Source: a virus. From it: DNA of 20,117 nt. The notes under the pieces were generated by a model that was not told where the DNA came from, searched no databases, and saw nothing but the letters and a program-made list of their open reading frames with translations. Position 1 is the first letter of the stretch. Each line of letters begins with the position of its first letter. The stretch lies in IMG/VR virus record IMGVR_UViG_3300051212_000738, positions 1 to 20,117 of that record; one strand, 5' to 3'. Positions 1,353-19,515 of the stretch are shown piece by piece. The position numbers and the translations under genes were made by a program.

Positions 1353-1720
1353 TGATTAATTCAGTTACCAGTTCTAGCAAACACGTTTATGCCGCAGGGG
1401 GTAGTTCGCTACCCTATGTATCATATAATTCATCTAATCCCGCACAGGGTATGTTGCGCATTAATGGATCCGAAATGGAAGTGTTTGATGGTAACCAATG
1501 GATGAAGATTTATGCTAGTAGTGCAAACGTAGGCCTAAATAGCGAAGCTGAAAGTGCTATTGATTGGGCTATTAAGAGACAAAAGCAAGAAAAAGAATGG
1601 TACGAATTGGCTTCTTCGAACGAAGCTGTTCGTATCGCTCTTGATCAACTAGAACAGGCACGAACAAGAGTAGAACTTACAGCAATTTTAGCGAGAGAAC
1701 ATGAGCAAACAACCAGTTAA
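1352..1720 (+). CDS. Conserved phage protein of unknown function
   Basis: 122 residues. Start at 1352 overlaps the clamp stop codon (TAATG), suggesting translational coupling. The N-terminal half is Ser/Gly/Asn-rich and includes QGMLRINGSEMEVFDGNQW, a pattern seen in small beta-structured phage proteins (a G-x-L/I-R-x-N-G...D-G-x-x-W repeat-like motif, known from tail and head decoration proteins). The C-terminal half (from about residue 66) is helical and charged, ending HEQTTS. I do not recognise a function. Its place between the clamp and the DpdA-like gene makes it an early gene rather than an obvious structural one. The last 20 bases overlap the next gene. Confidence 0.7.
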   Translation: MINSVTSSSKHVYAAGGSSLPYVSYNSSNPAQGMLRINGSEMEVFDGNQWMKIYASSANVGLNSEAESAIDWAIKRQKQEKEWYELASSNEAVRIALDQLEQARTRVELTAILAREHEQTTS

Positions 1721-3242
1721 TTTAACACCACTACAAAAAGATTACGCAGTATACCTTCCAGCAATTAGTTGTTTTTATTCAACATACATTGCCAAACAGC
1801 GAACTGAAAAGTTTATTGAAGATGAAAGAATTCCTAAAGGATTTGATCGCGGTATTGAAGGAATGAACTTCCTTAATCCAGATCAAGGTTATTTTACATA
1901 CAAATACGGTTTGTATTCTGCAGGTCATGCAACATTAGATTTGAATAAAACTATGGTTCGTGACGCGATGATACAAGAACGAGATAGAAATAATTCTATC
2001 ATCCTCGGCGACTCCGGTGGATATCAAGTAGGTAAAGGTGTTCTTAAGTTTGACTGGCAGAATTTTGAAGGACCTGCTGCTAATAAAACTAGAGACGATA
2101 TCCTTAACTGGTTAGAATTAACAGCAGATTGGTCAATGTTATTGGACGTTCCTACCTGGGCTTGTGATCATATCCATAGTCCAAAGACAGGATTAAAGGA
2201 TTTTCAAGACTGTTTAGATAAGACAAGATTCAACAACGAATACTTCTTAAAGAATCGTTTAGGACAAACAAAGTTTTTAAACGTTTTACAAGGCAGTGAC
2301 TGGGATACAGCGGAACGCTGGTATCAAGGAGTAAAAGAATTTAGTGATCCTAAAGTATGGAGTGATAAGGCTTGTGAGGGTTGGGCCATGGGCGGTGCCA
2401 ATATGTGCAAGATGCCAATCACTCTACGCAGATTGATTACTATGAGATTTGACGGTATGTTAGAAGGCAAAGATTGGATGCACTTCTTAGGTACCGCTCA
2501 ATTAGACTGGAGTTGTTATCTTACTTCTATTCAAAGGCAAATTAGAAAACATGTTAACGAAAACTTTACCATATCTTTTGACTGCGCATCACCCTTCATT
2601 GCGACAGCGCACGGACTTGTCTACACAAACGCCCAACATACAAACAAGCGTTGGTCAGTCATCATGGACAAAGCGCCAGATACCAAGACTCTTTCAGGAT
2701 CCGACACGCCATTCCCATTCGAATCAGAAATCGGCAGAAGATTATCAATCGGAGACATCTGCTGGTACAAACCAGGAATGCTCAACAAGGTAGGTAAAGA
2801 AGGCAAAACTTCTTGGGATAGTTTTGCCTACGCATTAATGATGGCACATAATGTTTACTGTCACATTGTTGCTGTGCAAAGAGCCAATCAATTGATGGAT
2901 ATTGAGCGTTCAATTAAGAAACCAGATTGGAGAAACTGGCGCAAAGTTAAAGATGCTGATAAGAGCGACGAATTTTCAGAGTGGGTTCCGAGAAACATTC
3001 TTTACTTTGATCGGTTCGTTGAAGAGCTCTTCGATTGTAAAACTAAAGACGAAGCATTTGCGATGATTGCTGAAGCAGAACGTCTTGGTTTCTTACAAAA
3101 TCTAGAAGGTGCTAGATTGCGTGGCGGTGTCACAAATATCGTTAACAATCTATTTGACGAAGTAAAAGAAGATGGAAGTATTGAAGTTCCATGGACTGAT
3201 GATAGAGAGGACGAGGAACTTGATAAGCTTGTAGTAGAATAA
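1701..3242 (+). CDS. dpdA: DpdA/TGT-family guanine exchange enzyme (DNA 7-deazaguanine insertion)
   Basis: 513 residues, TIM-barrel transglycosylase of the tRNA-guanine transglycosylase superfamily. Visible landmarks in TGT order: GDSGGYQ (Asp104, the base-binding DSGG loop), LLDVP (Asp149), VLQG (Gln197), GWAMGGA (227-233), and SFDCASPF (Asp294), which aligns with the nucleophile motif FDCVMPT. The canonical CxCxxC zinc site is reduced: only Cys354 (GDICWY) and a His383/Cys387/His388 patch remain. Phage DpdA proteins replace guanine in DNA with preQ0 or relatives; tRNA-type TGTs are normally shorter (about 370-380) with a full zinc site. Sharing the window with folE, queE and a QueD-like gene favours DpdA. 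Action on tRNA cannot be excluded. Starts 20 bases inside the previous gene. Confidence 0.78.
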   Translation: MSKQPVNLTPLQKDYAVYLPAISCFYSTYIAKQRTEKFIEDERIPKGFDRGIEGMNFLNPDQGYFTYKYGLYSAGHATLDLNKTMVRDAMIQERDRNNSIILGDSGGYQVGKGVLKFDWQNFEGPAANKTRDDILNWLELTADWSMLLDVPTWACDHIHSPKTGLKDFQDCLDKTRFNNEYFLKNRLGQTKFLNVLQGSDWDTAERWYQGVKEFSDPKVWSDKACEGWAMGGANMCKMPITLRRLITMRFDGMLEGKDWMHFLGTAQLDWSCYLTSIQRQIRKHVNENFTISFDCASPFIATAHGLVYTNAQHTNKRWSVIMDKAPDTKTLSGSDTPFPFESEIGRRLSIGDICWYKPGMLNKVGKEGKTSWDSFAYALMMAHNVYCHIVAVQRANQLMDIERSIKKPDWRNWRKVKDADKSDEFSEWVPRNILYFDRFVEELFDCKTKDEAFAMIAEAERLGFLQNLEGARLRGGVTNIVNNLFDEVKEDGSIEVPWTDDREDEELDKLVVE

Positions 3243-3253
3243 AGGAGACTATT

Positions 3254-3463
3254 GTGTATAAAGGTAGAATTGCCCATTTAACTGAAACACACAGAATTTT
3301 AGACAAGCAAATTAATGATATGGAAAGAACAGGCAACTTTAAAGATGAAGTTCTTTCCGAAATGAAGAAAAGAAAGCTCGCTATCAAAGACGAAATTTCT
3401 CGTTTAACCAAACTACAATGGGAATACGAACATGAACGAGTTGACTTTGATGATGATAGATAA
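3254..3463 (+). CDS. Small DUF465-like (YdcH-type) helical protein
   Basis: 69 residues with a GTG start, set by a strong Shine-Dalgarno AAAGGAG at 3241-3247 that partly overlaps the dpdA stop. The sequence is a helical hairpin: HLTETHRILDKQINDMER in the first half and KKRKLAIKDEISRL in the second. This is the heptad-like pattern of the DUF465/YdcH family, small bacterial proteins of unknown role often present in phages. The tail is acidic (VDFDDDR). The final codons contain the -35 hexamer of the promoter for the next gene. Family call is by pattern only. Confidence 0.72.
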   Translation: MYKGRIAHLTETHRILDKQINDMERTGNFKDEVLSEMKKRKLAIKDEISRLTKLQWEYEHERVDFDDDR

Positions 3464-3469
3464 TATAAT
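3441..3469 (+). promoter_or_regulatory. Consensus sigma70-like promoter, leaderless start
   Basis: TTGACT at 3441-3446, a 17-base spacer and TATAAT at 3464-3469. Six bases separate the -10 element from the ATG at 3476, so transcription should begin at or next to the start codon. No Shine-Dalgarno sequence is present, consistent with a leaderless message. The -35 lies inside the upstream DUF465-like gene. Confidence 0.65.
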
Positions 3470-3475
3470 TTAAAT

Positions 3476-3922
3476 ATGATTGAAGAAGATTACGACAAGT
3501 TTGCTGATCATATGACAGAAAAATATCCAAAGATATTTTCAAAACCATATGGCGGCTTTTGTATTGGACCCGGTTGGTGGCCCATTGTAGAAAAGCTCTG
3601 CGACCAAATTCAACATCATATTGATTGGAATAACAAGAATGCAGTCGCCGGTTACAAAGACTTCCAACCAATCGAGCAAGTTGTAGTAGACCAAATTAAA
3701 GAAAAATTTGGTGGGCTTCGTTTTTATTATCAAGGTGGCGATAATTATATCCGCGGACTAGTGAGTATGGCAGAATCTTGGGCATGGCATAGCTGCGAAG
3801 AATGCGGTGTTCCTGGAAAGAGTCGCGGCGGAGGTTGGATCAAAACTCTTTGTGACGAACACGATAAAGAACGTCAATTAAAATACGAACAATATGCTAA
3901 ACAGAATGGACTGGAACTATGA
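3476..3922 (+). CDS. Conserved phage protein with Cys/His zinc-binding pattern
   Basis: 148 residues. The start follows a consensus promoter with no room for a ribosome-binding site. The middle carries GPGWWPIVEKLCDQI and QIKEKFGGLRFYYQGG, strongly conserved-looking blocks I associate with an uncharacterised protein common in T4-like and other large phages. A likely zinc site is formed by SCEECGVPG and LCDEH (Cys-x2-Cys then Cys-x2-His). I know no function. It overlaps the following 52-residue Cys-rich gene by ATGA, so two putative zinc proteins are co-translated. Confidence 0.75.
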   Translation: MIEEDYDKFADHMTEKYPKIFSKPYGGFCIGPGWWPIVEKLCDQIQHHIDWNNKNAVAGYKDFQPIEQVVVDQIKEKFGGLRFYYQGGDNYIRGLVSMAESWAWHSCEECGVPGKSRGGGWIKTLCDEHDKERQLKYEQYAKQNGLEL

Positions 3923-4077
3923 AATGCGAATCCTGTGGTCTTACAATTAAAGAAGGCGGTGTAGGCTGCGATTGGCAACAAGGACGTTGCCCACATAGAA
4001 CTCCATACCTCACCGCTTATCATTTTCGCTATCTAAATCTCATCAACTCGATTAAAAATCTCTTTAAGAAAGGCTAA
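3919..4077 (+). CDS. 52-residue zinc-ribbon-like protein
   Basis: A short gene starting in an ATGA overlap with the previous stop and ending one base before the next ATG. The N-terminal half has MKCESCG (Cys3, Cys6), then GCDW (Cys17) and GRCPHR (Cys24, His26): a compact metal-binding knuckle. The C-terminal half is an aromatic and basic helix ending in LFKKG. Tight packing on both sides and the Cys spacing argue it is real. Function unknown; possibly DNA- or protein-binding. Confidence 0.65.
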   Translation: MKCESCGLTIKEGGVGCDWQQGRCPHRTPYLTAYHFRYLNLINSIKNLFKKG

Positions 4078-4078
4078 T

Positions 4079-4576
4079 ATGGCTAATTGGAAAGTTTCGC
4101 CTTATTACAAAAAATCCTGCGAAGAACACGAACACTATACCAAAGATGAAATGACTATCATTCGTAAAACTGGATATCGTGGTGCTAGCTTCTACGTAGA
4201 AACTTCAGACGATAATCCACCAGAATTTGAATTTAGCTTTGTACCCGGCGGCGACGGAAACAAAGACAGTATCAATATGTACGACTGTTATGGTAATAAC
4301 ATTGAAAACGTTGAACTAGAATCTATGTGGGATGGATGCTGGGAAGATATTGAATTTCCAGATGAAATGGAGGCTGAAGAAGTTGAACGCCTGCAAGACC
4401 TTATTGAAGAAGAAGGTGACATCTACGATGTTCTAGAAAATCAAGAAGGGTGGAGTCAAAGCGAAACTGAAGCGTGGATCTGGGGGCCAATCTTGATTGA
4501 AGACGAAGCGGGTAACCAAGTTCGTATTATTATTGCAGACGAAGACGGTAACGTCGTAGACTACAAGGACGAATAA
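4079..4576 (+). CDS. Very acidic conserved phage protein, unknown function
   Basis: 165 residues with about 45 Asp/Glu against about 11 Lys/Arg, most of the acid concentrated after residue 75. Recognisable blocks are VELESMWDGCWEDIEFP and GWSQSETEAWIWGPI, the latter a tryptophan-rich motif I associate with an uncharacterised T4-like family. The start is one base after the upstream stop; two bases separate its stop from the next ATG. No catalytic motif seen. Such strongly negative proteins can act as DNA mimics or simply be soluble accessory factors; the sequence does not decide. Confidence 0.75.
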   Translation: MANWKVSPYYKKSCEEHEHYTKDEMTIIRKTGYRGASFYVETSDDNPPEFEFSFVPGGDGNKDSINMYDCYGNNIENVELESMWDGCWEDIEFPDEMEAEEVERLQDLIEEEGDIYDVLENQEGWSQSETEAWIWGPILIEDEAGNQVRIIIADEDGNVVDYKDE

Positions 4577-4578
4577 TC

Positions 4579-5136
4579 ATGAAGCGTGATTATAAAGACG
4601 GTGTTGCCACAGATATCACATTCTTTATGGGAACAGAAATTGAACGCACTCCTGCATATGGAATGAAAACTCTGTTTGTAGTAGGTGTTCATGATCCTAT
4701 AGATATTCTAGAGATTGTTACAGAAAGCAGATCCTACTTGGACGAATCAAAGCACATAAAACATATCTATTTTGGTGCCAATCAAAGTTTCCATACTAAA
4801 GGTGTCAACGATGTGGAAGGTTGGCGTCCTTGGGAAAATATGATCTGCGCCTGTCTCGAATCTAAATATAATCTTTGGTGTACTCTAGATTTTGACGTAA
4901 GAGAAGCCGAAGGTCTTTTGGAAAGTGGACTTACAGAAAACCGTAGATTTATTCCTCAGATCAGTGTAAAATTACCCTATATTAATCAACTAGGTTACAA
5001 TGCTACACTAAAGATTGATGATAAAGATTTTTGTGCAACTAATCCTGGGGTTTGGTGCCATAACCTACAGGACCTGATGGGTAGAGATCGTTTTACCGAT
5101 TGGGATCAATATGGCAAGGATGAAATTATTAAATGA
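4579..5136 (+). CDS. Conserved phage protein of unknown function
   Basis: 185 residues. Alternating strands and helices: ITFFMGTEIERTPAYGMKTLF, then KHIYFGANQSFH, WENMICACLESKYNLWCTLDFD, and RFIPQISVKLPYI. I recall a similar uncharacterised protein in marine T4-like phages (pattern HT/RTPA.G.KTLFVVG and IYFGANQSF), but no function. Six cysteines are scattered without a metal-site spacing. It ends in an ATGA overlap with the next gene, part of a coupled run of small genes from 4579 to 6093. Confidence 0.72.
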   Translation: MKRDYKDGVATDITFFMGTEIERTPAYGMKTLFVVGVHDPIDILEIVTESRSYLDESKHIKHIYFGANQSFHTKGVNDVEGWRPWENMICACLESKYNLWCTLDFDVREAEGLLESGLTENRRFIPQISVKLPYINQLGYNATLKIDDKDFCATNPGVWCHNLQDLMGRDRFTDWDQYGKDEIIK

Positions 5137-5486
5137 GTACGGGTCAACTACTTAGCTACGCTAAACAACCCAGAGCATCTGCTATCAGGCCTGCTCGTAA
5201 AGTTAGGAAAGAAAAAGTGAAACTTACATTAAAGCAACGTTTTCGTAATTGGCTTAACGATAACGAATACGAAACAGACTCTCCTCAATATGTAGAAGCA
5301 GATCGATTTTCTACCGATGGTATGCGTATGCAAATCTATAAGGCTAGTGGCGGTTATGTTGTAGAAACTCGTACATATGACAGTCATAAAGATCGTCAAC
5401 ATCACAGTATGCACGTTATCACTGAAGAGCAGGATCTTGGTGACGCTTTAGGTAAAATTGTATTAATGGAGGCATTGAAGCGATGA
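5133..5486 (+). CDS. Small conserved phage protein, basic N-terminus
   Basis: 117 residues. The first 45 residues are strongly basic (RPARKVRKEKVKLTLKQRF), probably disordered and nucleic-acid contacting. The second half is a beta-rich domain with MRMQIYKASGGYVVETRTYD followed by DLGDALGKIVLMEAL. I recognise the latter pattern from small proteins near replication genes in T4-like phages, with no known role. ATGA overlaps at both ends couple it to its neighbours. Confidence 0.72.
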   Translation: MSTGQLLSYAKQPRASAIRPARKVRKEKVKLTLKQRFRNWLNDNEYETDSPQYVEADRFSTDGMRMQIYKASGGYVVETRTYDSHKDRQHHSMHVITEEQDLGDALGKIVLMEALKR

Positions 5487-5701
5487 AAGAAAATTTTAAA
5501 TCATTTACTGTTAAAGAAAATAAAGGATTCCGCTTGAGAATCGAATCGTGGGATGCATTGGCTCCTAAAGGATTAGTAGCTGTTGAGTTTATCCAAGAGT
5601 GCCTAAATAACGAGGGAGAAGTTGATTCTTCTAGCGTATACAGTTATAATATGACTAGAGATGAAATTGGTAATATGTGCAAAGGTCTAATGAGTGTATG
5701 A
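5483..5701 (+). CDS. Small hypothetical phage protein
   Basis: 72 residues, starting in an ATGA overlap with the previous gene. It reads as a beta-hairpin (FRLRIESWDAL, LVAVEFIQECL) plus a C-terminal helix (TRDEIGNMCKGLMSV). No motif recognised. The upstream sequence has AATGGAGG at 5467-5474, a good ribosome site for ATG 5483. It ends in an ATGA overlap with the QueD-like gene. Confidence 0.7.
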   Translation: MKENFKSFTVKENKGFRLRIESWDALAPKGLVAVEFIQECLNNEGEVDSSSVYSYNMTRDEIGNMCKGLMSV

Positions 5702-6093
5702 TCATTAAACAAGACGTAAGACCTAATAAAATGATCTGGGTTACTTTCCGCAAGGAAGGAATTCATAAATATCCTGCGGCTCTAACAGATCCAAATTTAG
5801 CCACAGGAGACGAATATGACGTATCGTTTTTGGGTCATCCCCATCGCCACATTTTTCATTTCAGGGTGTGGATCAGTGTGCAGCACAATGATAGGGACAT
5901 CGAGTTCATCCAATTCAAACGATGGCTCGAGTCGCTGTATAGTGGTCAAGGTGCCGTTCTAAGCCTTGATCATAAGAGTTGTGAAATGATGTCAGATGAT
6001 TTAGCTCACATCATTTCACTAAAGTATCCAGGCCGCGAGGTTTGGATTGAGGTCTCCGAGGACGGAGAAAATGGTTCATTCATCAAATATTGA
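5698..6093 (+). CDS. queD: Divergent QueD / 6-pyruvoyltetrahydropterin synthase-like T-fold protein
   Basis: 131 residues, the usual QueD size (about 120). QueD converts 7,8-dihydroneopterin triphosphate, the FolE product, to 6-carboxytetrahydropterin, the QueE substrate. Matching landmarks in order: His23 (GIHKY), HRH at 49-51 in place of the zinc-binding HGH, an amphipathic strand FRVWISV, DIEFIQFKRWLE in place of the V-x-DF-x-x-LK segment, LDH at 90-92 (the QueD catalytic Asp-His), a DDLAHII helix where QueD has SEVLAKWI, and IEVSEDGENG resembling the final V-x-E strand. The catalytic cysteine normally four residues before HGH is absent (Leu45 there). Start at 5698 chosen for the ATGA overlap. 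Context with folE, queE and dpdA supports the call; homology is by eye only. Confidence 0.58.
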   Translation: MIIKQDVRPNKMIWVTFRKEGIHKYPAALTDPNLATGDEYDVSFLGHPHRHIFHFRVWISVQHNDRDIEFIQFKRWLESLYSGQGAVLSLDHKSCEMMSDDLAHIISLKYPGREVWIEVSEDGENGSFIKY

Positions 6094-6103
6094 AAAGGAA
6101 ACA

Positions 6104-6337
6104 ATGATGAAACAAGAAGTCGTTAAGATTTTCGATGATCTCGACGCCCTGCTCGATTTCTGCAGGTTTGAACTCCTGCCGTATAATCCGGCAGATTTGT
6201 ATAACCGCCAAAGTAAGGTTTGGCAGGCTTACGAGGCATCTAAACGTCCTCGTCGACACTTTGATCGTAATGATCGAAATGCCGAACGAAAGGAGTGGAA
6301 GCCAAGAGGCACTCAAAATTATCGGACAAGACACTGA
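6104..6337 (+). CDS. Small basic phage protein, unknown function
   Basis: 77 residues from ATG 6104 (a second ATG follows at 6107). A ribosome site AAGG at 6095-6098 lies just after the upstream stop. The N-terminal half is acidic and hydrophobic (VVKIFDDLDALLDFCRFELL), with a segment NPADLYNRQSKVWQAY. The C-terminal 30 residues are rich in Arg, Asn and His (KRPRRHFDRNDRNAERKEW), likely a nucleic-acid-contacting tail. No known family function. The stop overlaps the next start as TGATG. Confidence 0.68.
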   Translation: MMKQEVVKIFDDLDALLDFCRFELLPYNPADLYNRQSKVWQAYEASKRPRRHFDRNDRNAERKEWKPRGTQNYRTRH

Positions 6338-7392
6338 TGACAATATTCCTAGTTGATTTAGAAGCAGTTGAAACTAGGTACACAGGCGAGTGGAAAACCC
6401 ACTTGCCTGTTGTTCTACGAAAGGCAGGACACAATGTTCAAATTATTGACGGCCCTGAAGATATCCCTCGTGCCACTACTCCTGGCGCCTTTCTTAATTT
6501 TGGTGGCACTAATATCTATAAGTCTGCACAAGTTGAAAAGATTGGTAGACTATTTTGCGCTGGACGCATTTCAGCTGGCGACCATTTTATTTTTACTGAT
6601 GCTTGGCATCCAGGCATTATAAACTTAAAATACATGAGCGAGCTTCTTGGTATTCCAGTCAAGATTCATGCTCTATGGCATGCTGGTAGTTATGATCCTC
6701 AAGATTTCTTAGGACGGTTAATTGGGGATGCTCCGTGGGTTAGACATGCTGAAAAAAGTTTCTTCCATGCAATTGACCATAACTGGTTTGCTACAGATTT
6801 TCATATCAAAATGTTTGATCACAACTTGTTAAATCATGTTGTTGACTACGATGATAAGAAAGTTGTTCGCACAGGCTGGCCTATGGAATATATGCCAGAC
6901 ATCTTGAGCATGTACAAAGGAATGCCTAAACGCAATTTGATTCTATTTCCTCATCGTATTGCTCCAGAAAAACAGTTAGATATTTTCTTAGATCTCAAAG
7001 AACAGTTACCGCAATATGAGTTTAAGGTCTGTCAAGAATATCCGTTGACAAAGAACGAATATCACAACATGCTAGGCGAAGCTAAATTAGTGTTCAGTGC
7101 CAATCTACAAGAAACACTCGGCATTAGCTGGTATGAAGGTGCCATTGTTGATGCTATTCCAATGGTTCCAGATCGTTTAAGCTACAGCGAAATGGCGCTA
7201 GACGAATTCAAGTATCCCAGTGTGTGGACTGAAAGTTTTGAAAATTATCTTGGATGTAGAAATCAAGTAATAGAAAAAATTATCGATTACATGGAAAATT
7301 ATGATAAGTATCTACCACGCCTAAATAAACAGGTAGACATGTTAACTAAAAACTATTTTAGTTGCAATGGCTTATTGGAGATGTTAAAATAA
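6337..7392 (+). CDS. GT-B (GT4-like) glycosyltransferase
   Basis: 351 residues. The N-terminal domain is Rossmann-like (MTIFLVDLEA... LPVVLRKAGHNVQIIDG, FLNFGGTNIY). The C-terminal domain shows retaining GT-B features: LILFPHRIAPEKQLDIFLDL at 201-220 and an E-x7-E motif, Glu259 and Glu267, in ETLGISWYEGAIVDAIPMVPD. That motif binds the nucleotide-sugar donor in GT4 enzymes. Acceptor unknown: it could glycosylate a modified DNA base, as T4 does on hydroxymethylcytosine, or a virion or host surface component. Its place in the early gene run beside folE favours an intracellular job, an inference only. Start 6337 overlaps the upstream stop. The promoter for folE lies in its last 31 bases. Confidence 0.75.
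   Translation: MTIFLVDLEAVETRYTGEWKTHLPVVLRKAGHNVQIIDGPEDIPRATTPGAFLNFGGTNIYKSAQVEKIGRLFCAGRISAGDHFIFTDAWHPGIINLKYMSELLGIPVKIHALWHAGSYDPQDFLGRLIGDAPWVRHAEKSFFHAIDHNWFATDFHIKMFDHNLLNHVVDYDDKKVVRTGWPMEYMPDILSMYKGMPKRNLILFPHRIAPEKQLDIFLDLKEQLPQYEFKVCQEYPLTKNEYHNMLGEAKLVFSANLQETLGISWYEGAIVDAIPMVPDRLSYSEMALDEFKYPSVWTESFENYLGCRNQVIEKIIDYMENYDKYLPRLNKQVDMLTKNYFSCNGLLEMLK
7362..7390 (+). promoter_or_regulatory. Extended -10 sigma70-like promoter before folE
   Basis: TTGCAA at 7362-7367, a 17-base spacer and TAAAAT at 7385-7390, with TGT immediately before the -10 (extended -10 TGn). The -10 overlaps the stop codon of the glycosyltransferase gene. Start of transcription is predicted near 7397, leaving a leader of about 29 bases with GGAG at 7414-7417. 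Confidence 0.5.
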
Positions 7393-7425
7393 TGTCATCC
7401 ACGACAATAACTCGGAGAATAATTA

Positions 7426-8121
7426 ATGTCAGAAAAAAATCTAGCTCAAGTAATTCGTGAGCGCATGAAACAAGACGGCAAAAGATTTTGGGCCGGCGAC
7501 AATATCAGTGACTACGTCACTCCAGAAATTAAACACAAATTAATCGACGAAGCAACAGAAGCATTTGAACTAGTATTAGATCAACTGTTAATCGATCGCG
7601 AAAATGATCCTAACTCTCATGGTACAGCAAGACGTCTTGCAAAAATGTACTTTAACGAAATAATGAGTGGTAGGTATGACCCGGCACCGAGTGCAACAGC
7701 ATTTCCAAACGATACTGAAGATCGTTACGAAGGCATGCTAGTTGTTCGCTCAGAGCTACGCAGTATGTGTAGTCATCATCATCAGCCTGTCAGTGGTGTT
7801 GCATACATCGGCATTATTGCTGCCGAAAAACTTATCGGACTTTCTAAGTACACACGCATTGCACAATGGTGTGCTCGACGGGGAACTCTTCAAGAAGAAC
7901 TAGCCAATGACATCGCTCGCGAAATCATGAAAGCCACTGGCGCTAAGGATGTAGGTGTCTATGTACAAGCCGTACATGGCTGCTGTGAAAATCGAGGTAT
8001 TATGGCACATAGTTCTTTAACACAAACTACTGTGTTAAAAGGTGCGTTTAAAGATGATGCAGGTACAAAGAAAGAATTCTTTGACAATATCAAACTTCAA
8101 CAGGACTTTGCCCCAAGATGA
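7426..8121 (+). CDS. folE: GTP cyclohydrolase I
   Basis: 231 residues, similar to E. coli FolE (222). It converts GTP to 7,8-dihydroneopterin triphosphate, the entry step for both folate and 7-deazaguanine. Zinc ligands are visible as Cys115 and His118 in MCSHHHQPV and Cys186 in VHGCCENRG. His117 and His184 match the E. coli catalytic His112 and His179. Further landmarks: IGLSKYTRIAQWCARR and LQEELANDIA, then GVYVQAVHGCC and a Thr/Ser-rich TQTTVLKG. Strong ribosome site GGAG 8 bases upstream and its own promoter. The stop overlaps the next ATG. In phages, folE usually accompanies queuosine-type genes; here a QueD-like gene, queE and a DpdA homologue lie nearby. Confidence 0.96.
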   Translation: MSEKNLAQVIRERMKQDGKRFWAGDNISDYVTPEIKHKLIDEATEAFELVLDQLLIDRENDPNSHGTARRLAKMYFNEIMSGRYDPAPSATAFPNDTEDRYEGMLVVRSELRSMCSHHHQPVSGVAYIGIIAAEKLIGLSKYTRIAQWCARRGTLQEELANDIAREIMKATGAKDVGVYVQAVHGCCENRGIMAHSSLTQTTVLKGAFKDDAGTKKEFFDNIKLQQDFAPR

Positions 8122-8339
8122 ACTCAATAGAACAAGCTAATGCATTTATTGATAGAGTTAAAAATCTACAAACATTTGAAGTTAAGCGTATGTTAGACGA
8201 ACCTTTAGAATTTAGAGGTGGTAGAGTACCGTTTGATATTCGCGCCAATCAAGAGTGTGCATGGTTCAAGGTTATAGCGTTATCTCAGAAAGAAGCAGAA
8301 GATATGGTAGACCGTTGGCTAAGAGGCGAGGATGAGTGA
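8118..8339 (+). CDS. Small hypothetical phage protein
   Basis: 73 residues, ATGA-coupled to folE. N-terminal helix (SIEQANAFIDRVKNLQTFEVKRML) followed by a small alpha/beta unit, with C-terminal VIALSQKEAEDMVDRWLRGEDE, which resembles the end of small phage proteins where a strand is followed by an A/SEEQAEEMVDxWL helix. No catalytic residues visible. It overlaps the DNA glycosylase gene by 8 bases. Confidence 0.7.
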   Translation: MNSIEQANAFIDRVKNLQTFEVKRMLDEPLEFRGGRVPFDIRANQECAWFKVIALSQKEAEDMVDRWLRGEDE

Positions 8340-8751
8340 ACCGCTACTCGACGAGTTAATGGTGCAACAACAATTGCCGGCCAAAAACGAGAGACATCGT
8401 GCATGGCAGCATATGGTTGGAGTTATAATGCTAAACCAAACTGGTAGAAAACCAGTGAAGTATGTGCTGCCACTTTTCTTAGATCGTTGGCCAACTCCTA
8501 ATACGTTTTTGTTTGCTACAGAAGACGAAGTCAAAGAAATCATTTGGCCTTTGGGTATGTACAATACTCGTTTCAAAAGACTTAAACGCATGACTGCTGA
8601 TTTCTTGACTTGGAACGGAGAAGATGCTACAAAATTATATGGCATTGGTAAGTATGGTTCAGATAGCTATGAAATCTTTTTCAAACAAAACTATACAGTA
8701 AACCCTACAGATAAAGAACTTATTCGTTACTTAAAAGAGGAAATTCTATGA
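8332..8751 (+). CDS. HhH-GPD DNA glycosylase, MBD4-like
   Basis: 139 residues, matching only the catalytic domain of human MBD4, a glycosylase that removes T or U opposite G. Correspondences in order: VIMLNQTGRKPV (MBD4 FLNRTSGK), IIWPLGMYNTRFKRL (LLKPLGLYDLRAKTI), the helix-hairpin-helix LYGIGKYGSDSYEIF (LHGIGKYGNDSYRIF), and NPTDKEL with the catalytic Asp127 (HPEDHKL). There is no lysine in the bifunctional position and no Fe-S cysteine cluster, so a monofunctional glycosylase is expected. It may repair deaminated bases in phage DNA, or cut out particular bases; the substrate is inference. Stop/start overlaps on both sides place it in the folE-to-dCMP deaminase run. Confidence 0.82.
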   Translation: MSEPLLDELMVQQQLPAKNERHRAWQHMVGVIMLNQTGRKPVKYVLPLFLDRWPTPNTFLFATEDEVKEIIWPLGMYNTRFKRLKRMTADFLTWNGEDATKLYGIGKYGSDSYEIFFKQNYTVNPTDKELIRYLKEEIL

Positions 8752-9080
8752 AAACTATCGAAGAAGCTTGGGATATTATCGAGAGTCTTAATGACGATGC
8801 TCATAATCAGGCATGGGACACATGGGTCGAGTCAGATAATTTAATGGAGTCTGACGACGAAGCCGATTGGGAAGCTGCTGAAGATTTACGTGAACAGGCC
8901 AGTTTAGAACAAGCAGAATATTTTCGCGATGCTTGGTATGATCTCAGCAACGAAGATCAAGAATTGATAGAATATTGGCTAGAGCGTGATGAAGATTTTA
9001 GAGAACAATTTTCAACATACTTTGGTCAAGAAGAATTTGCAAATGAATTTCCTGCTTTTGAAATTCAAAAGGATGAATAA
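8748..9080 (+). CDS. Extremely acidic Trp-rich protein, candidate DNA mimic
   Basis: 110 residues with 37 Asp/Glu and only 6 Lys/Arg, net charge about -31, plus six tryptophans. Predicted to be almost all helix (repeating segments such as AWDTWVES, EADWEAAEDLREQ, DAWYDLSNEDQELIEYWLE). No known domain recognised. Charge density like this is typical of phage DNA-mimic inhibitors (T7 Ocr, T4 Arn), which bind restriction or other DNA-binding proteins, but that role is inference. It is ATGA-coupled to the DNA glycosylase upstream and TAATG-coupled to the cupin gene, so it is made with them. An inhibitor of a DNA glycosylase (Ugi-like) is another possibility. Confidence 0.75.
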   Translation: MKTIEEAWDIIESLNDDAHNQAWDTWVESDNLMESDDEADWEAAEDLREQASLEQAEYFRDAWYDLSNEDQELIEYWLERDEDFREQFSTYFGQEEFANEFPAFEIQKDE

Positions 9081-9526
9081 TGTTTCTTAAACTTTTAGAA
9101 AAACTAGGACGTAAGCGTATCATTATGGATAGGATGAGTGATGAGCCTTACCTAGAACGCTATTATCTTTTTCTTAAAGAAAGAGATCGTTTTCCTTTTA
9201 ACATTTTCTTACATAAATTTCTAAAAGGAGATCCGGATGATCTCCACGATCATCCTTGGCCTTATGCTACATTAATTCTAAAAGGCGGTTATTGGGAAAC
9301 TACACCCAAAGGACGATTCTGGCGCGGTGCCGGACACTTTAGGACCTGTAGTGCTGAAAGCTATCACCGCATTGAATTAGAACCTGGCGTCGAATGCTGG
9401 ACACTGTTCATGCCTGGTCCACACAAACGCGAATGGGGTTTTGATGTCGATGGTCGTTGGGTGCAACACGAACAATATCTAAAGGAGAGGTATGAACAAG
9501 CTCATAATCAACCAACACGAGCTTAA
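9080..9526 (+). CDS. Cupin-fold protein
   Basis: 148 residues. Cupin pattern: LHDHPWPYATLILKGGYWE, with His56 and His58 as metal-ligand candidates, then a turn at residues 74-86, SYHRIELEPGVECWTLFMPGP with His96 as the third ligand, and a C-terminal REWGF. This is a small single-domain cupin seen in many tailed phages, of unknown substrate. Start at 9080 shares a base with the previous stop (TAATG). The last 35 bases overlap the phosphoribosyltransferase gene, whose ribosome site lies within this gene. Binding of a small metabolite or sugar nucleotide is plausible. Confidence 0.72.
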   Translation: MFLKLLEKLGRKRIIMDRMSDEPYLERYYLFLKERDRFPFNIFLHKFLKGDPDDLHDHPWPYATLILKGGYWETTPKGRFWRGAGHFRTCSAESYHRIELEPGVECWTLFMPGPHKREWGFDVDGRWVQHEQYLKERYEQAHNQPTRA

Positions 9527-10085
9527 TGGTTTAGTTGGCAAAATCTGTAGAAACATTCTTATAAGTGGTTGGAAGCCAGATTATATAGTAGGGATTACCA
9601 GAGGTGGTTTAATCCCTGCTGTCATGATCAGCCAGTACTTAGGTGTTCCTATGCACACTTTAGAAGTAAGCCTGCGAGACGGGGGAGACACTGAAAGTAA
9701 TCTATGGATGGCTGTAGATGCGTTTGGAACACCAGAAAAAGAAATCGTTATTAAAGACGAACAAGACATTGGAAGTGTATTGGATGCTGCGTCATCATTA
9801 TTAGAAATGCCAGAGCTGCCATCTTATAAAAATATATTGTTAGTCGACGACATCAATGATACTGGCGCAACGTTTAATTGGATTATGAACGATTGGAAAT
9901 CTAGTTGTTTTCCAAATGATCCAGCATGGTATGAAATCTGGAATAGCAATGTTAAATTTTCTGTATTGATTGATAATTTAGCCAGTCAGTGTGAAGTTAA
10001 AATGGATTTTATTGGCAGGGAAATCAACAAAGCAGAAAATGATGTTTGGGTAGATTTTCCTTGGGAAGATTGGTGGACGAAATGA
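9492..10085 (+). CDS. Phosphoribosyltransferase (type I, purine-salvage-like)
   Basis: 197 residues. The type I PRTase fold is shown by WKPDYIVGITRGGLIPAVMIS (residues 27-47, the first strand and Rossmann-like loop) and by the PRPP-binding loop NILLVDDINDTGAT (114-127), with adjacent Asp119-Asp120 and the DTG turn. It looks closest to xanthine/guanine phosphoribosyltransferases (Gpt-like), which join a free purine to PRPP. Residues 62-111 contain an acidic insertion between strands. A link to salvage of guanine or a 7-deazaguanine base released during DNA modification is attractive but unproven. Ribosome site GGAG at 9484-9487. Ends in an ATGA overlap with the HIT gene. Confidence 0.85.
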   Translation: MNKLIINQHELNGLVGKICRNILISGWKPDYIVGITRGGLIPAVMISQYLGVPMHTLEVSLRDGGDTESNLWMAVDAFGTPEKEIVIKDEQDIGSVLDAASSLLEMPELPSYKNILLVDDINDTGATFNWIMNDWKSSCFPNDPAWYEIWNSNVKFSVLIDNLASQCEVKMDFIGREINKAENDVWVDFPWEDWWTK

Positions 10086-10468
10086 AAGAAAATGTAATGA
10101 ACGATCAACCTCCTTTTATTGAGGACGGTAATGCTCCTTGGGATAATTTGTTAGAAGAAGACTTTCACGTAAAAGTTTTTTATGACAAATATCCTGTTAC
10201 AGAGGGTCACTTGTTATTTGTGCCTAAATATAACACCGTCGCAGTACTAATGGACGCATTTGAAAGTGCAGTTCGAGATGGCATGCGTATGGTAGATGAA
10301 GGACACTGTGACGGATTTAATATTGGTTTTAATTACGGTAAGAGTGCAGGTCAAACTGTAGGCTGGCCCCATGTACATCTTATTCCGAGACGAACAGGCG
10401 ATATGGAAGATCCAACAGGCGGAGTTCGTCATGTTATACCAGAGAAAGGAAATTACAAAAAATGGTAA
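10082..10468 (+). CDS. HIT-family nucleotide hydrolase/transferase
   Basis: 128 residues from ATG 10082, chosen for the ATGA overlap with the previous gene. HIT landmarks: FYDKYPVTEGHLLFVPK (33-49, with the G-H-L/x-x-V/F-P-K strand) and the triad region GQTVGWPHVHLIPRR (90-104), where His97 and His99 match the H-x-H of the histidine triad. The first His of the canonical H-x-H-x-H is replaced by Gly-Trp-Pro, typical of the phage branch as I recall it. HIT enzymes hydrolyse or transfer nucleotidyl groups such as AMP-NH2 or Ap4A. It likely serves nucleotide housekeeping with the neighbouring phosphoribosyltransferase and dCMP deaminase. Confidence 0.85.
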   Translation: MKENVMNDQPPFIEDGNAPWDNLLEEDFHVKVFYDKYPVTEGHLLFVPKYNTVAVLMDAFESAVRDGMRMVDEGHCDGFNIGFNYGKSAGQTVGWPHVHLIPRRTGDMEDPTGGVRHVIPEKGNYKKW

Positions 10469-10644
10469 AAGAAGGATCTAAATGGTGGGCCGGTGATAAA
10501 GTTTTTCAAGTGATCAATGTTCTTGAAATTGATAATCATACTTGGGTTTATTATAGAACTGTAAAACCAGTAGATGAAGAACCTAGAGAATATAGCTGTT
10601 ACATTGAAAGCTTTCTACAGAGATTTACTGCCTTACCAGAATGA
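10462..10644 (+). CDS. Small conserved phage protein (SH3-like barrel)
   Basis: 60 residues, overlapping the HIT gene by 7 bases. Beta-rich sequence: GSKWWAGDKVFQVINVLEID, HTWVYYRTVKP, then REYSCYIESFLQRFTALPE. The W-x-x-G-x-x-x-x-V and Y-S-C-Y-x-E-S-F-x-x-R-F pattern is familiar from short uncharacterised phage proteins that look like small SH3-type barrels. No function known. ATGA-coupled to the next gene. Confidence 0.7.
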   Translation: MVKEGSKWWAGDKVFQVINVLEIDNHTWVYYRTVKPVDEEPREYSCYIESFLQRFTALPE

Positions 10645-10838
10645 ATACTATTTGCATTAAATGGGAAACGAATCGTCGTGAAGTAAGTTGGTCTAATCTT
10701 TGTGCATCTGTTGTTGAACAGTTTGGATTACCTGGTGGTCGATATCAAACTGAAGTATGCGAAGATTGGATGTCGTTTCATTTCCACAATGATAAAGATG
10801 CATTTATGTGTAAAGTGTTATTAAGCGAATACCTATGA
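10641..10838 (+). CDS. Small conserved phage protein, unknown function
   Basis: 65 residues between two ATGA overlaps. Sequence pattern SWSNLCASVVEQFGLPGGRYQ then DWMSFHFHNDKDAFMCKVLL suggests a small alpha/beta ferredoxin-like unit. I recall the FGLPGGRY...FHF.N.KDA.M.K motif from uncharacterised proteins in T4-like phages. No catalytic residues can be assigned. Placement just before dCMP deaminase, with coupled translation, is the only functional hint. Confidence 0.7.
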   Translation: MNTICIKWETNRREVSWSNLCASVVEQFGLPGGRYQTEVCEDWMSFHFHNDKDAFMCKVLLSEYL

Positions 10839-11335
10839 AAGAAAAATTTAAAAAAGCATTCATGGAAACTGCAAAGTTATTTGCAGAGTTAAGTCATGCC
10901 AAACGATTGCATGTTGGCGCTATTGTCGTTAAGGATGATCGTATCATTAGTATCGGTTATAACGGTATGCCGGCAGGATGGGAAAACGATTGCGAGTATA
11001 AAGACTACATGAGCAGAGATGCGGGCGGTTGGCTAAATCCAGATGAAATTGAACAGCGTTGGCAGTATCTAGAAGAGGACGGCACTAGATACTCTTTAAA
11101 AACCAAACCAGAAGTACTACACGCAGAAACAAATGCCATCGCTAAATTAGCCAGAAGCACAGAATCTGGCGTTGGATCGACAATGTTTATTACACATAGC
11201 CCATGTCTAGATTGTGCCAAATTAATTTACCAGTCAGGAATACAAAGAGTGTATTATGGCGAAGCCTATAGAAATAATGACGGTGTTGAGTTTTTAGAAA
11301 AATCAGGAGTTCAAATTGAAAAGATGGATACTTAA
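10835..11335 (+). CDS. cd: Deoxycytidylate (dCMP) deaminase
   Basis: 166 residues, zinc-dependent deaminase making dUMP from dCMP for thymidylate synthesis. The zinc site is clear: His96-Ala-Glu98 (VLHAETNA) with the proton-shuttling Glu, and Cys124/Cys127 in HSPCLDCAK. GYNGMPAGWENDC (41-53) is the T4-type substrate loop, and KRLHVGAIVVKDDRI the first strands. Length and motifs match phage T4 gene cd (about 190). ATGA-coupled to the upstream gene. In the same window as an MBD4-like glycosylase, nucleotide deamination and uracil/thymine repair may be linked, an inference. The last 20 bases overlap a small TTG-start gene. Confidence 0.94.
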   Translation: MKEKFKKAFMETAKLFAELSHAKRLHVGAIVVKDDRIISIGYNGMPAGWENDCEYKDYMSRDAGGWLNPDEIEQRWQYLEEDGTRYSLKTKPEVLHAETNAIAKLARSTESGVGSTMFITHSPCLDCAKLIYQSGIQRVYYGEAYRNNDGVEFLEKSGVQIEKMDT

Positions 11336-11480
11336 CGTAGAAGAAGATCCAGAAACAGGAGATGGTATTTTAACATTTCCAGAGGATCTTCTTGAAGAAT
11401 CAGGATGGAAAGAAGGAGATCAAATTTTGTGGACCGATAATGGGGACGGGTCTTGGACTTTAACAAAAAAGAATGTATAA
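11316..11480 (+). CDS. 54-residue AbrB-like (swapped-hairpin) protein, TTG start
   Basis: A short frame running from TTG 11316 to TAA 11478-11480. The start is fixed by a perfect AGGAG at 11305-11309, 6 bases upstream. The sequence MKRWILNVEEDPETGDGILT, then FPEDLLEESGWKEGDQILW and DNGDGSWTLTKK, has the look of an AbrB/MazE swapped-hairpin domain (strand, P-x-D/E-L-L-E-E-x-G-x-K-E-G-D, strand). I also recall this family as a small conserved protein in T4-like phages. It might be a DNA-binding regulator, possibly acting on the adjacent queE promoter, but that is speculation. It overlaps dCMP deaminase by 20 bases. Confidence 0.72.
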   Translation: MKRWILNVEEDPETGDGILTFPEDLLEESGWKEGDQILWTDNGDGSWTLTKKNV

Positions 11481-11481
11481 T
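11453..11481 (+). promoter_or_regulatory. sigma70-like promoter before queE, near-leaderless
   Basis: A perfect TATAAT at 11476-11481 with a weak -35 (TTGGAC, 11453-11458) at 17-base spacing. The -10 overlaps the stop codon of the preceding 54-residue gene. Only five bases lie between the -10 and ATG 11487, so transcription should start at the start codon or a base or two inside it. No Shine-Dalgarno sequence precedes the ATG. Confidence 0.5.
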
Positions 11482-11486
11482 ATATT

Positions 11487-12338
11487 ATGGAAAAAATTAA
11501 AATTGCAGAGCTGTTTTACAGCATTCAAGGAGAAGGACGTTATATGGGCGTTCCTTCTGTATTTCTGCGCACTTTTGGTTGCAACTTTAAGTGCGCTGGT
11601 TTTGGTATGCCTAGGGGTGAATTGAGCAATGAAGTAGAGGCTATTGCTCAAAAAATCAACGAGTTTAAGATCTATGAAGAACTTCCATTAGTTAGTACTG
11701 GCTGCGATAGTTATGCTAGTTGGGACCCAAGATTTAAAAATCTAAGCCCTATGCTAACTGTCGATGCAATTGCAGATCGCATCTGTGAAATTCTTCCTTT
11801 TAATGAATGGAAAGATGAGCATCTAGTGATCACGGGCGGTGAACCTTTACTAGGTTGGCAACGTGCATATCCTGCATTGCTTGAACACTCTAAGATGAAA
11901 AATCTTAAAGAGATTACATTTGAAACTAATGGTACTCAAAAATTAACTCCAGAATTTAAAAAATATCTAATGAACTGGGGAATTGATAATCGAGGTTATC
12001 ATAAATTAACTTTTAGTGTCAGTGCAAAATTAAGTTGTTCCGGAGAATCTAGACACGAAGCTATTCGTCCAGATATAGTCTGCGAATACGAAGAAGTTGG
12101 ATATACCTATCTTAAATTTGTAGTAGCAACAGAGGAAGATGCAGATGAAGCGATCGAAACAGCAGACATTTACAGAGCCGAAGGGTTTGCGGGACCCATA
12201 TATCTTATGCCAGTTGGTGGGGTGGAGTCTGTTTATACTCTTAATAATCGTAGGGTCGCTGAACTAGCAATGAAAAATGGACTTCGCTATAGTGATAGAC
12301 TACAAGTGCCGTTATTTAAAAATGAGTGGGGAACTTAA
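11487..12338 (+). CDS. queE: 7-carboxy-7-deazaguanine synthase, QueE
   Basis: 283 residues, radical SAM enzyme converting 6-carboxytetrahydropterin to 7-carboxy-7-deazaguanine. N-terminal IAELFYSIQGEG(R)YMGVPSVFLRTFGCNFKC is diagnostic (QueE S-x-Q-G-E-G and R-x-x-G-C). HLVITGGEPLL carries the GGEP SAM motif, and ITFETNGTQ the following strand. The cluster motif is split: Cys32 and Cys36 keep the C-x3-C spacing, but the third cysteine appears to be Cys73 in STGCDSYASWDP, aligned to B. subtilis WCDSAFTWD, after about 36 extra residues that include GFGMPRG. At 283 residues it is longer than most bacterial QueE (about 210-245), consistent with an insertion. Supplies the deazaguanine core expected by DpdA. 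Confidence 0.92.
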   Translation: MEKIKIAELFYSIQGEGRYMGVPSVFLRTFGCNFKCAGFGMPRGELSNEVEAIAQKINEFKIYEELPLVSTGCDSYASWDPRFKNLSPMLTVDAIADRICEILPFNEWKDEHLVITGGEPLLGWQRAYPALLEHSKMKNLKEITFETNGTQKLTPEFKKYLMNWGIDNRGYHKLTFSVSAKLSCSGESRHEAIRPDIVCEYEEVGYTYLKFVVATEEDADEAIETADIYRAEGFAGPIYLMPVGGVESVYTLNNRRVAELAMKNGLRYSDRLQVPLFKNEWGT

Positions 12339-12345
12339 TTCTAAA

Positions 12346-13344
12346 ATGAATAGTCGAGAAATCATAAAGATAAAATCTACTATTCCTAGCAATGTTTTGA
12401 GACTAGAATTGTTTCTAAGTGATTTTTGCAATTATCAATGCTGGTATTGTTCAAAAGATTTTAATGGTAGGACCGTAAAATGGCCTACCCTTGAAATACT
12501 TCTTCCAAATTTTATACATCTCTTAAATTTTTATAAATCAAAAGGTAAATCTAAATTTATAATTCACATCGGCGGGGGAGAACCTTCTCAATGGCCCGAA
12601 TTAGTGAATTTTGTCTTAACGATCAAAAAATATCATAACTGCGTAGTTAGTTTAACTACAAACGGAAGCAGAACATTAAGATGGTGGAACGAGAATGTTA
12701 AAACTTTTGACCATATTGGACTAAGTGTTCATCACGAGAAAGCAAATGCTAATCATTTGAAAAAAGTGGGAGATATCGTTTATAAGAATAAAGTAGCGTT
12801 GTGGACTTCAGTTTTAATGGATCCAAATCACTGGGAAAAGTGTATTTCAATTATTGAAGAATTAAAAACTAGCAAATATAAATGGTCAATAACAGCAAAT
12901 CAAATTCATTGGAACGATTTAATTTATACCGATGATCAGAAAGAATTTTTAAAACACAGAATATGCAGGAAAAACAATATTTTTTATGAGTGGTTCATCA
13001 ATAAAAGAAAGCGCCCCAACTACCAGCAGCCAATAGTATATTTTAAAGATTATTCAAAAAAAGTTAAAAATCATTGGTTGTTGTTAAACAACTATAATAA
13101 TTTTAAGAATTGGGAATGTTATATTGGTATAGAAACTATATTCATCGATAAAAAAGGTGAGATTAAAGGTAGTTGTGGAAACACTCTATTTGATAAAGAT
13201 TTTTTTTACAATATATACGATAAAGATTTTGTATCAAAGTTTGACGTTGAACTAATACCAACTACATGCCAAATGAATCGATGCATTTGTCAACCAGAGG
13301 TAAACTGTACTAAAATTAATTTAAAATATAAGGAATTGTTATGA
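12346..13344 (+). CDS. Radical SAM enzyme with SPASM-like C-terminus
   Basis: 332 residues from ATG 12346, 7 bases after the queE stop; ATG 12322, overlapping queE, is an alternative, and neither has a good ribosome site. The SAM/4Fe-4S motif is canonical: Cys28-x3-Cys32-x2-Cys35 in DFCNYQCWYC, followed by IHIGGGEPSQWPEL. The C-terminal part has WECYIGIETIFIDKKGEIKG, then GSCGN and a cluster TTCQMNRCICQPEVNC: cysteines 258, 277, 308, 313, 315 and 321. This resembles a SPASM domain that binds auxiliary iron-sulphur clusters. Substrate unknown. Position directly after queE suggests tailoring of a deazapurine or other nucleotide, but SPASM enzymes more often modify peptides or sugars. It looks more AT-rich than queE, so it may be a later insertion. 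Confidence 0.82.
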   Translation: MNSREIIKIKSTIPSNVLRLELFLSDFCNYQCWYCSKDFNGRTVKWPTLEILLPNFIHLLNFYKSKGKSKFIIHIGGGEPSQWPELVNFVLTIKKYHNCVVSLTTNGSRTLRWWNENVKTFDHIGLSVHHEKANANHLKKVGDIVYKNKVALWTSVLMDPNHWEKCISIIEELKTSKYKWSITANQIHWNDLIYTDDQKEFLKHRICRKNNIFYEWFINKRKRPNYQQPIVYFKDYSKKVKNHWLLLNNYNNFKNWECYIGIETIFIDKKGEIKGSCGNTLFDKDFFYNIYDKDFVSKFDVELIPTTCQMNRCICQPEVNCTKINLKYKELL

Positions 13345-17434: not shown

Positions 17435-17732
17435 AAAGTTTTTTCGACCTCCGCAGACAGTAGTTAAGCAATGGCCAGAAATTTTTGAAGATATGTATAT
17501 GAGTTCCGTACCCCTCTATTATACTAAATCTATACAGATTAAATTTGATAATGGAAGGATATGGCAACTCAATATACAAGAGTTGGTTCTTGAACACGGA
17601 AGTGATTCTTTATCCACAAAATTATTAGAAACATTTAAAGAATATCAAAATGATATTGCTGGTATTGAATTTGAAGTCGACGTTAAGAAACTAAAGAAAG
17701 ATATTAAAAAATCAATTAAAAAGATTCTTTAA
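17427..17732 (+). CDS. Conserved small phage protein, last plus-strand gene
   Basis: 101 residues. MPKKFFRPPQTVVKQWPEIF, then EDMYMSSVPLYYTKSIQIKF and GRIWQLNIQELV, ending in a Lys-rich helix (VDVKKLKKDIKKSIKKIL). The KKFFRPPQTVVKQWPEIFEDMY opening is a familiar block in marine T4-like phages, function unknown. It ends tail-to-tail with the minus-strand glycosyltransferase-like gene, the two coding regions overlapping by 17 bases. No terminator hairpin is visible at this convergent junction. Confidence 0.72.
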   Translation: MPKKFFRPPQTVVKQWPEIFEDMYMSSVPLYYTKSIQIKFDNGRIWQLNIQELVLEHGSDSLSTKLLETFKEYQNDIAGIEFEVDVKKLKKDIKKSIKKIL

Positions 17733-18921: not shown

Positions 18922-19510
18922 TATATCCTCGTACCAGGATAACCCCATTATTCTTTGAATAAACGATTCTATAATTTCTAGAAATTAAAAATGGAATTAC
19001 TGCTGAAGATTTTCCAATATATAATCCGCAATGTTCTTGAAACACTGTATCATCGCATATGATTACAGAGTTTTCGGCCATGTACGGATAACAATAAATC
19101 ATTTGATCTAGATGTTCCGAGGCACAATTTAAATTGGTCCAATGTAAATCAATAGCATGATATTGATCTTTGAGACCAGTTTTATCTGGGTCTTCTGGTC
19201 TATGATTCCAATCGTAATTATCAAGATAAAGTATTTTAATTTTTTTGTTCAAAGAAGGCAATTCTTCTCTTGCCCATTTTGATCCCATCGAAACAACAAA
19301 TGATGTATTTTTTAAATGAGATAATTTATTTTTGGCATTGTCTAATAAGTCAACACTATAAAACGGAACATTGAATTGTCCGGCATAAGAATCAAAGAAT
19401 TCAGTAGATCCTTCACCGCGTTCGCTGCCGATCTCTACTATTACATCATTCTGTTTATCGTATCCGGCATATAGAATATAAGGAATTGCGTTTTTATGAA
19501 AATTAGCCAT
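18905..19510 (-). CDS. Class I SAM-dependent methyltransferase
   Basis: 201 residues from ATG 19510 (MANFHKNA), 5 bases after the upstream oxygenase stop. An in-frame ATG at 19552 exists but lies in the upstream gene. Rossmann motifs: DVIVEIGSERGEGSTEFF (motif I, SAM-binding), PFYSVDLLDN (motif II acidic residue), KIKILYLDNYDWN and NSVIICDDTVF (motif IV region), then GKSSAVIPFLISRNYRIVY. It looks like a Methyltransf_24-type or sugar/small-molecule O-methyltransferase often found beside glycosyltransferases. Target not evident. No sign of the DPPY/NPPY motif of adenine-N6 or cytosine-N4 DNA methylases. Confidence 0.75.
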   Translation of the reverse strand: MANFHKNAIPYILYAGYDKQNDVIVEIGSERGEGSTEFFDSYAGQFNVPFYSVDLLDNAKNKLSHLKNTSFVVSMGSKWAREELPSLNKKIKILYLDNYDWNHRPEDPDKTGLKDQYHAIDLHWTNLNCASEHLDQMIYCYPYMAENSVIICDDTVFQEHCGLYIGKSSAVIPFLISRNYRIVYSKNNGVILVRGYNELLF

Positions 19511-19515
19511 ATTAA

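Follow-up and report, generated by a model that had tools for sequence, protein, structure and literature searches.

A predicted QueC-free 7-deazaguanine DNA-modification module with a linked glycosyltransferase in a fragment of a large aquatic phage

7-Deazaguanines formed without QueC are already known in phage DNA. Phages with dDG or dCDG are said to have been described by Cui in 2023 as carrying DpdA3 and a predicted decarboxylase of 7-carboxy-7-deazaguanine (CDG), DpdL. The DNA of phage nt-1 contains dPreQ0, dADG and dG+, and DpdA2 has been linked to this modified DNA (PMC6884629). The window analyzed here is the entire IMG/VR record IMGVR_UViG_3300051212_000738 (20,117 bases), a fragment of a large aquatic phage. 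An initial annotation, made from the sequence alone, had recognized in it four genes of a 7-deazaguanine DNA-modification pathway, namely those for a DpdA-type transglycosylase (at position 1701), a QueD-like T-fold protein (5698), FolE (7426) and QueE (11487). All four are indeed found at these positions, on the plus strand, and a pathway comprising FolE, QueE and a DpdA-type transglycosylase is supported. It is very probable that the phage DNA is modified with a 7-deazaguanine. The annotation overlooked the gene that turned out to be the module's most consistent partner, a glycosyltransferase (GT) gene at 6337-7392. The overall explanation that we moderately favor is an exchange of guanine for 7-deazaguanine that bypasses QueC and is followed by decoration by the GT. 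The proteins of the window were compared with Pfam, PHROG and NCBIfam; the genes concerned, with the evidence for each, are as follows:

1701 to 3242, plus strand: putative DpdA-type DNA-guanine transglycosylase with a tRNA-guanine transglycosylase (TGT) fold, DpdA2-related branch (AlphaFold2 and Foldseek, hhalign, invariant D104 and D294)
4579 to 5136, plus strand: conserved gene between dpdA and the T-fold gene (recurrence in loci)
5698 to 6093, plus strand: predicted T-fold paralogue of QueD without the QueD catalytic residues (phrog_17812, fold, residue table, genome distribution)
6337 to 7392, plus strand: putative GT4-like retaining glycosyltransferase, a longer frame opening at 6295 (PF00534 in the family, motifs)
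7426 to 8121, plus strand: FolE, GTP cyclohydrolase I (PF01227, E 3.5e-39)
9492 to 10085, plus strand: phosphoribosyltransferase (PRT), xanthine/guanine type (PF00156, E 7.7e-13)
11487 to 12338, plus strand: QueE, long-spacer type, CX3CX36CDS (phrog_2076 "QueE-like", E 1.4e-54)

When loci were drawn separately with T-fold, DpdA and GT queries, the other two genes were present in 27/27, 18/18 and 24/24 cases, respectively (counting only loci with full flanks), usually in the order DpdA, T-fold, GT. Because three separate queries recover the full set, the grouping is not a matter of chance. Clustering of the T-folds at 90% identity, with at least 4 kb required on each side, left 74 non-redundant loci: 56 with DpdA and GT, 2 with DpdA2 and GT, 14 in which a smaller transglycosylase stands without a GT, and 2 with GT and no nearby dpdA, one of which belongs to phage Phosso, whose dpdA lies about 170 kb off. 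The GT accompanies the T-fold in every DpdA- or DpdA2-type locus with enough flank and is absent from 14/14 loci of the smaller, phiST-type class. The transglycosylase of this class was recognized from its motifs and location; its profile similarity to DpdA falls short of significance. The transglycosylase-like proteins of loci L400, L402, L405 and L408 are motif readings with no tie to DpdA profiles. In six phage groups that were isolated separately, the T-fold and GT genes are immediate or close neighbors, and the pair occurs together with DpdA or DpdA2 and QueE in PA5oct, Paride, Phosso, ACP17, X1 and BUCT-ZZ01. Two kinds of QueC-free phages can be told apart in this way, those that have a small transglycosylase alongside the T-fold but lack a GT, and those in which the T-fold comes with DpdA or DpdA2 and a GT.

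In the window, the GT gene lies directly downstream of the T-fold gene. Its product has no Pfam match of its own; PF00534 (Glycos_transf_1) is matched by 8/19 members of the family (best 8e-12), and the EX7E (ETLGISWYE) and RxxxEK motifs can be read directly in the window protein. Among 50,697 phage records, good relatives of the GT are confined to T-fold phages, four more records giving weak matches (24% over 65%). We considered hydroxymethylpyrimidine as a general acceptor for the enzyme and rejected it. Such a base, if of thymidylate-synthase origin, does not qualify because most relatives are without the corresponding gene: PF00303 is missing from 13/21 large relatives and from ACP17, X1 and BUCT-ZZ01. 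A search for Tet/JBP gave no match in 26 genomes, with the controls silent too, so that this route is only weakly excluded. Action of the GT on the modified base is an attractive possibility that falls just short of even chances. No description of a GT-linked branch of deazaguanine modification was found in the literature searched.

On comparison with family profiles, FolE and QueE match their families and the 1701 and 5698 proteins have no match in Pfam or NCBIfam. Since neither of the latter two has an informative family match, structural evidence was needed for both. The sole PHROG match of the 5698 protein is phrog_17812, a family of unknown function. Its AlphaFold2 model is a T-fold (pLDDT 93.5), the nearest PDB folds being the PTPS 2dj6 and E. 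coli QueD 4ntk (E ~1e-4, TM 0.6-0.7); a sequence search of the PDB with the T-fold profile returned nothing meaningful. The QueD-like reading of this gene therefore stands for the fold and falls for the catalytic step: when 220 T-fold relatives were aligned with 34 phage QueDs (numbering of E. coli QueD), the catalytic residues Cys27, Asp70 and His71 are found in 0/220 T-folds versus 34/34 QueDs. The T-folds keep the zinc histidines H16, H31 and H33, and both groups keep the base-binding E110. Judged by these residues, the 5698 protein is a paralogue of QueD and not QueD itself. A canonical QueD with all catalytic residues sits elsewhere in the same genomes: a separate PF01242 protein is encoded in 15/21 large relatives (in one, G001, about 42 kb from dpdA) and also in PA5oct, Phosso, ACP17, phiST, BUCT-ZZ01, RHph_I1_18 and X1.

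The absence of QueC and QueF from the window was confirmed, and full-length copies of either are missing from all 21 large relatives as well (0/21). Among the genomes tested, nt-1 and Vibrio 2.275.O alone have a full-length QueC, and both are without T-fold and GT; only Vibrio 2.275.O has a QueF exceeding the cut-off. The suggestion that preQ0 might be made with a distant QueC is thus made unlikely, no QueC being present in the 21 large relatives or the GT-carrying isolates, and the pathway product is probably not preQ0-derived. Vibrio phage D479 has a QueC-like gene, which was examined as a functional QueC and discarded, being divergent and probably another paralogue; it adjoins a nicotinamide phosphoribosyltransferase gene and lies about 100 kb from the T-fold gene. 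Since the T-fold is present where QueC is missing, a reaction on CDG is indicated. We consider it likely that the T-fold protein acts on CDG in QueC's stead. That the reaction is a decarboxylation is a more tentative proposal, based on the fold, the distribution and the reported prediction of DpdL as a CDG decarboxylase.

The 513-residue product of the gene at 1701-3242 has no match in Pfam, PHROG or NCBIfam. Its AlphaFold2 model, built from 67 sequences (pLDDT 90, pTM 0.89), was compared with the PDB using Foldseek, and the top 50 matches listed were all TGTs (best E 1.2e-7); a sequence search of the PDB with the DpdA profile gave nothing meaningful. Residues D104 (in DSGG) and D294 (in ISFDCASP) are invariant across the 67 relatives, and the catalytic aspartates (in DSGG and, as the nucleophile, in ISxD) were equated with those of TGT by reading and by the DpdA2 alignment. 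Aligned by hhalign with a DpdA2-type profile from ACP17, BUCT-ZZ01 and X1, the family scores 97% probability (E 1.1e-10) over 195 columns, with the DSGG, QG, HxLG and ISxD motifs in register. The ACP17 protein in turn matches (tblastn) an nt-1 gene at 237,921-238,682, near the nt-1 QueC at 239,385; we regard this gene as the DpdA2 published for nt-1. No match to PF01702 (tRNA TGT) was found in the 1701 protein, and direct reading of its sequence showed no CxCxxC zinc motif. Because of the TGT fold, the profile relation to DpdA2 and the lack of both PF01702 and CxCxxC, the protein is placed, on sequence and model, as a presumptive member of the DpdA type, from a DpdA2-related branch, in agreement with the initial annotation.

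The assignments of FolE and QueE proved straightforward. The GTP_cyclohydroI domain of FolE scores 134.5 bits against a curated cut-off of 27. QueE shows the QGEG motif, three cluster cysteines and the TGGEP motif in the alignment; its cysteine spacing is CX3CX36CDS rather than the canonical CX3CX2C. In 123/133 distinct QueE relatives, 34-50 residues separate CX3C from CD[STA]; a CX3CX(34-50)C spacing is not known from other radical SAM enzymes. The long-spacer type is functional, because mass spectrometry found 15% dPreQ1 in the DNA of phage 6E351A (PMC12028318), which carries the same QueE family.

The following scheme could accommodate these findings. FolE, a canonical QueD encoded outside the fragment and QueE would convert GTP to CDG; the T-fold paralogue, taking the place of QueC, would act on CDG, the likeliest reaction being its decarboxylation to 7-deazaguanine; the DpdA2-related transglycosylase would swap the resulting base for guanine in the phage DNA; and the GT4-type enzyme would decorate that base after insertion or, with lower probability, a different target associated with it. 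The PRT is proposed to recycle the guanine freed by base exchange, probably sending it back to GTP. The complete version, in which the phage genome holds a glycosylated 7-deazaguanine, with the T-fold product inserted by DpdA and the sugar added by the GT4 enzyme, is a conjecture that we would rate somewhat below an even bet. The T-fold would then make 7-deazaguanine or a new CDG derivative, and the sugar might be carried as a C7 C-glycoside.

Several points weigh against this scheme. It is from relationship that the 1701 enzyme is presumed to work on DNA and not on tRNA. In 6/21 large relatives (possibly fragments), no QueD was found, and many phage QueDs in these genomes are without two of the zinc histidines that the T-folds keep. 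Unsubstituted 7-deazaguanine has no C7 hydroxyl or amine, leaving the GT to make a C-glycoside or to act at a different position; a possible way out of this conflict is that the T-fold catalyzes some reaction other than decarboxylation. As to the zinc histidines, many phage QueDs of the lineage are of an HGY type, and PA5oct encodes one HGH and one HGY QueD.

The T-fold data bear on two other views of the pathway. If the inserted base were CDG itself (dCDG), the pathway would end at QueE and the T-fold protein would be a divergent QueD or an accessory subunit. The missing QueC and QueF and the QueD fold of the protein fit this idea, but the catalytic residues of QueD are lost in all T-fold relatives, a complete QueD coexists with the T-fold in PA5oct, the G016 relative and Bakedbeans, and it is hard to see why phages of so many groups would keep a second T-fold if CDG were all that was needed; we therefore regard it as unlikely. 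It is more improbable still that the T-fold and a zinc-poor phage QueD form one mixed enzyme, each contributing half of the active site. The losses are complementary, HGY-type QueDs having lost H16 and H33 and kept Cys, Asp, His and Glu. However, PA5oct, G016 and Bakedbeans have a zinc-complete QueD (C...HGH) and yet keep the T-fold, and the QueDs at several T-fold loci of bacterial genomes are also HGH.

The remaining alternatives concern the target of the module. The GT might be unrelated to deazaguanine and act on a modified pyrimidine, the host surface or a protein, its linkage reflecting a shared hypermodification region. GT4 enzymes do use many acceptors. We nevertheless find this view doubtful, given that the GT follows the T-fold and the transglycosylase type perfectly across the 74 loci and the isolates, that thymidylate-synthase-family genes are absent from most relatives, and that no Tet/JBP match (control silent) came from the 26 genomes. 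Finally, the module could consist of auxiliary metabolic genes that boost queuosine in host tRNA instead of modifying DNA. QueE and FolE, taken alone, are shared with tRNA queuosine synthesis; the relatives are without QueC and QueF, though, and the 1701 transglycosylase is related to DpdA2 and has no PF01702 match of the tRNA type, leaving this possibility very remote. A QueC-free base exchange with glycosyl decoration remains the explanation that we prefer.

Other genes of the window were traced in the relatives. PRT homologues lie near the module in PA5oct, BUCT-ZZ01 and all three transglycosylase classes. In locus L402 (6445-7374), FolE is fused to an N-terminal PRT-like stretch with a PRPP-loop motif, the FolE half alone having a significant Pfam match and the PRT half being a motif reading. 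The gene at 4579-5136, whose product has no Pfam match, is present in 233/259 DpdA+GT loci (overlapping, not deduplicated) and adjoins dpdA2 in ACP17. A second radical SAM protein (12325-13344), with CX3CX2C spacing, weakly resembles viperin (47 bits, where the cut-off is 180), and its gene is found in only 24 of the loci. The frame at 8332-8751 encodes a short HhH-GPD (EndoIII/MutY-like) protein; in Phosso, a gene annotated as a glycosylase lies just upstream of the T-fold gene. Outside the module, the minus strand at 17716-20115 holds three genes, for proteins of 410, 215 and 199 (partial) amino acids, the last resembling a 2-oxoglutarate oxygenase.

A scan of GTDB genomes placed the T-fold in 24 loci. 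Magnetospirillum contigs carry GT, T-fold, DpdA and QueD consecutively (the DpdA member scoring 217 bits); this row is seen in loci L393-L396 and L398, from Magnetospirillum and Rhodospirillaceae, and is possibly an island serving host defence or epigenetic functions. One of them, L395, has a CoiA-nuclease-like gene nearby. An Amycolatopsis locus with T-fold, QueD, QueE and FolE is a prophage, because terminase and capsid genes come after the module. In two loci of Streptomyces sp. NEAU-Y11 (L406 and L407), T-fold, QueD and FolE precede a deaminase and an FAD-binding oxidoreductase; neither DpdA nor GT was detected, and a 7-deazapurine natural-product cluster is a possibility.

If the scheme is correct, a sugar-decorated purine would occur in the DNA of many jumbo and T4-like phages and in some bacterial chromosomes, pointing to a branch of guanine hypermodification that omits QueC and adds a glycosyltransferase. 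The T-fold/GT pair is shared with PA5oct and Paride of Pseudomonas, Phosso of Sinorhizobium, ACP17 of Acidovorax, X1 of Xanthomonas and BUCT-ZZ01 of Synechococcus, for which no DNA-modification report was found in the literature searched. Their module genes are mostly annotated "hypothetical protein", and likely functions can now be suggested for such genes in cultured phages, including PA5oct and Paride. The dDG/dCDG phages reported to carry DpdA3 and DpdL resemble the window in lacking QueC and in having a further enzyme on CDG, and Cellulophaga phiST has the same T-fold paralogue adjoining a small transglycosylase-like gene; the GT of the window is absent from those loci. The dG+ pathway of nt-1 and KVP40 (PMC6884629) shares the long-spacer QueE family, FolE, QueD and a profile-related DpdA2, but nt-1 has a full-length QueC and an amidotransferase, and is missing the T-fold paralogue and the GT. 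The T4 DNA glucosyltransferases offer a parallel for the proposed action of a phage glycosyltransferase on a modified DNA base, except that the target in T4 is hydroxymethylcytosine, whereas the partner genes in the window belong to the deazaguanine pathway. The type of pathway is already known, and it is its GT-linked branch that was absent from the literature searched.

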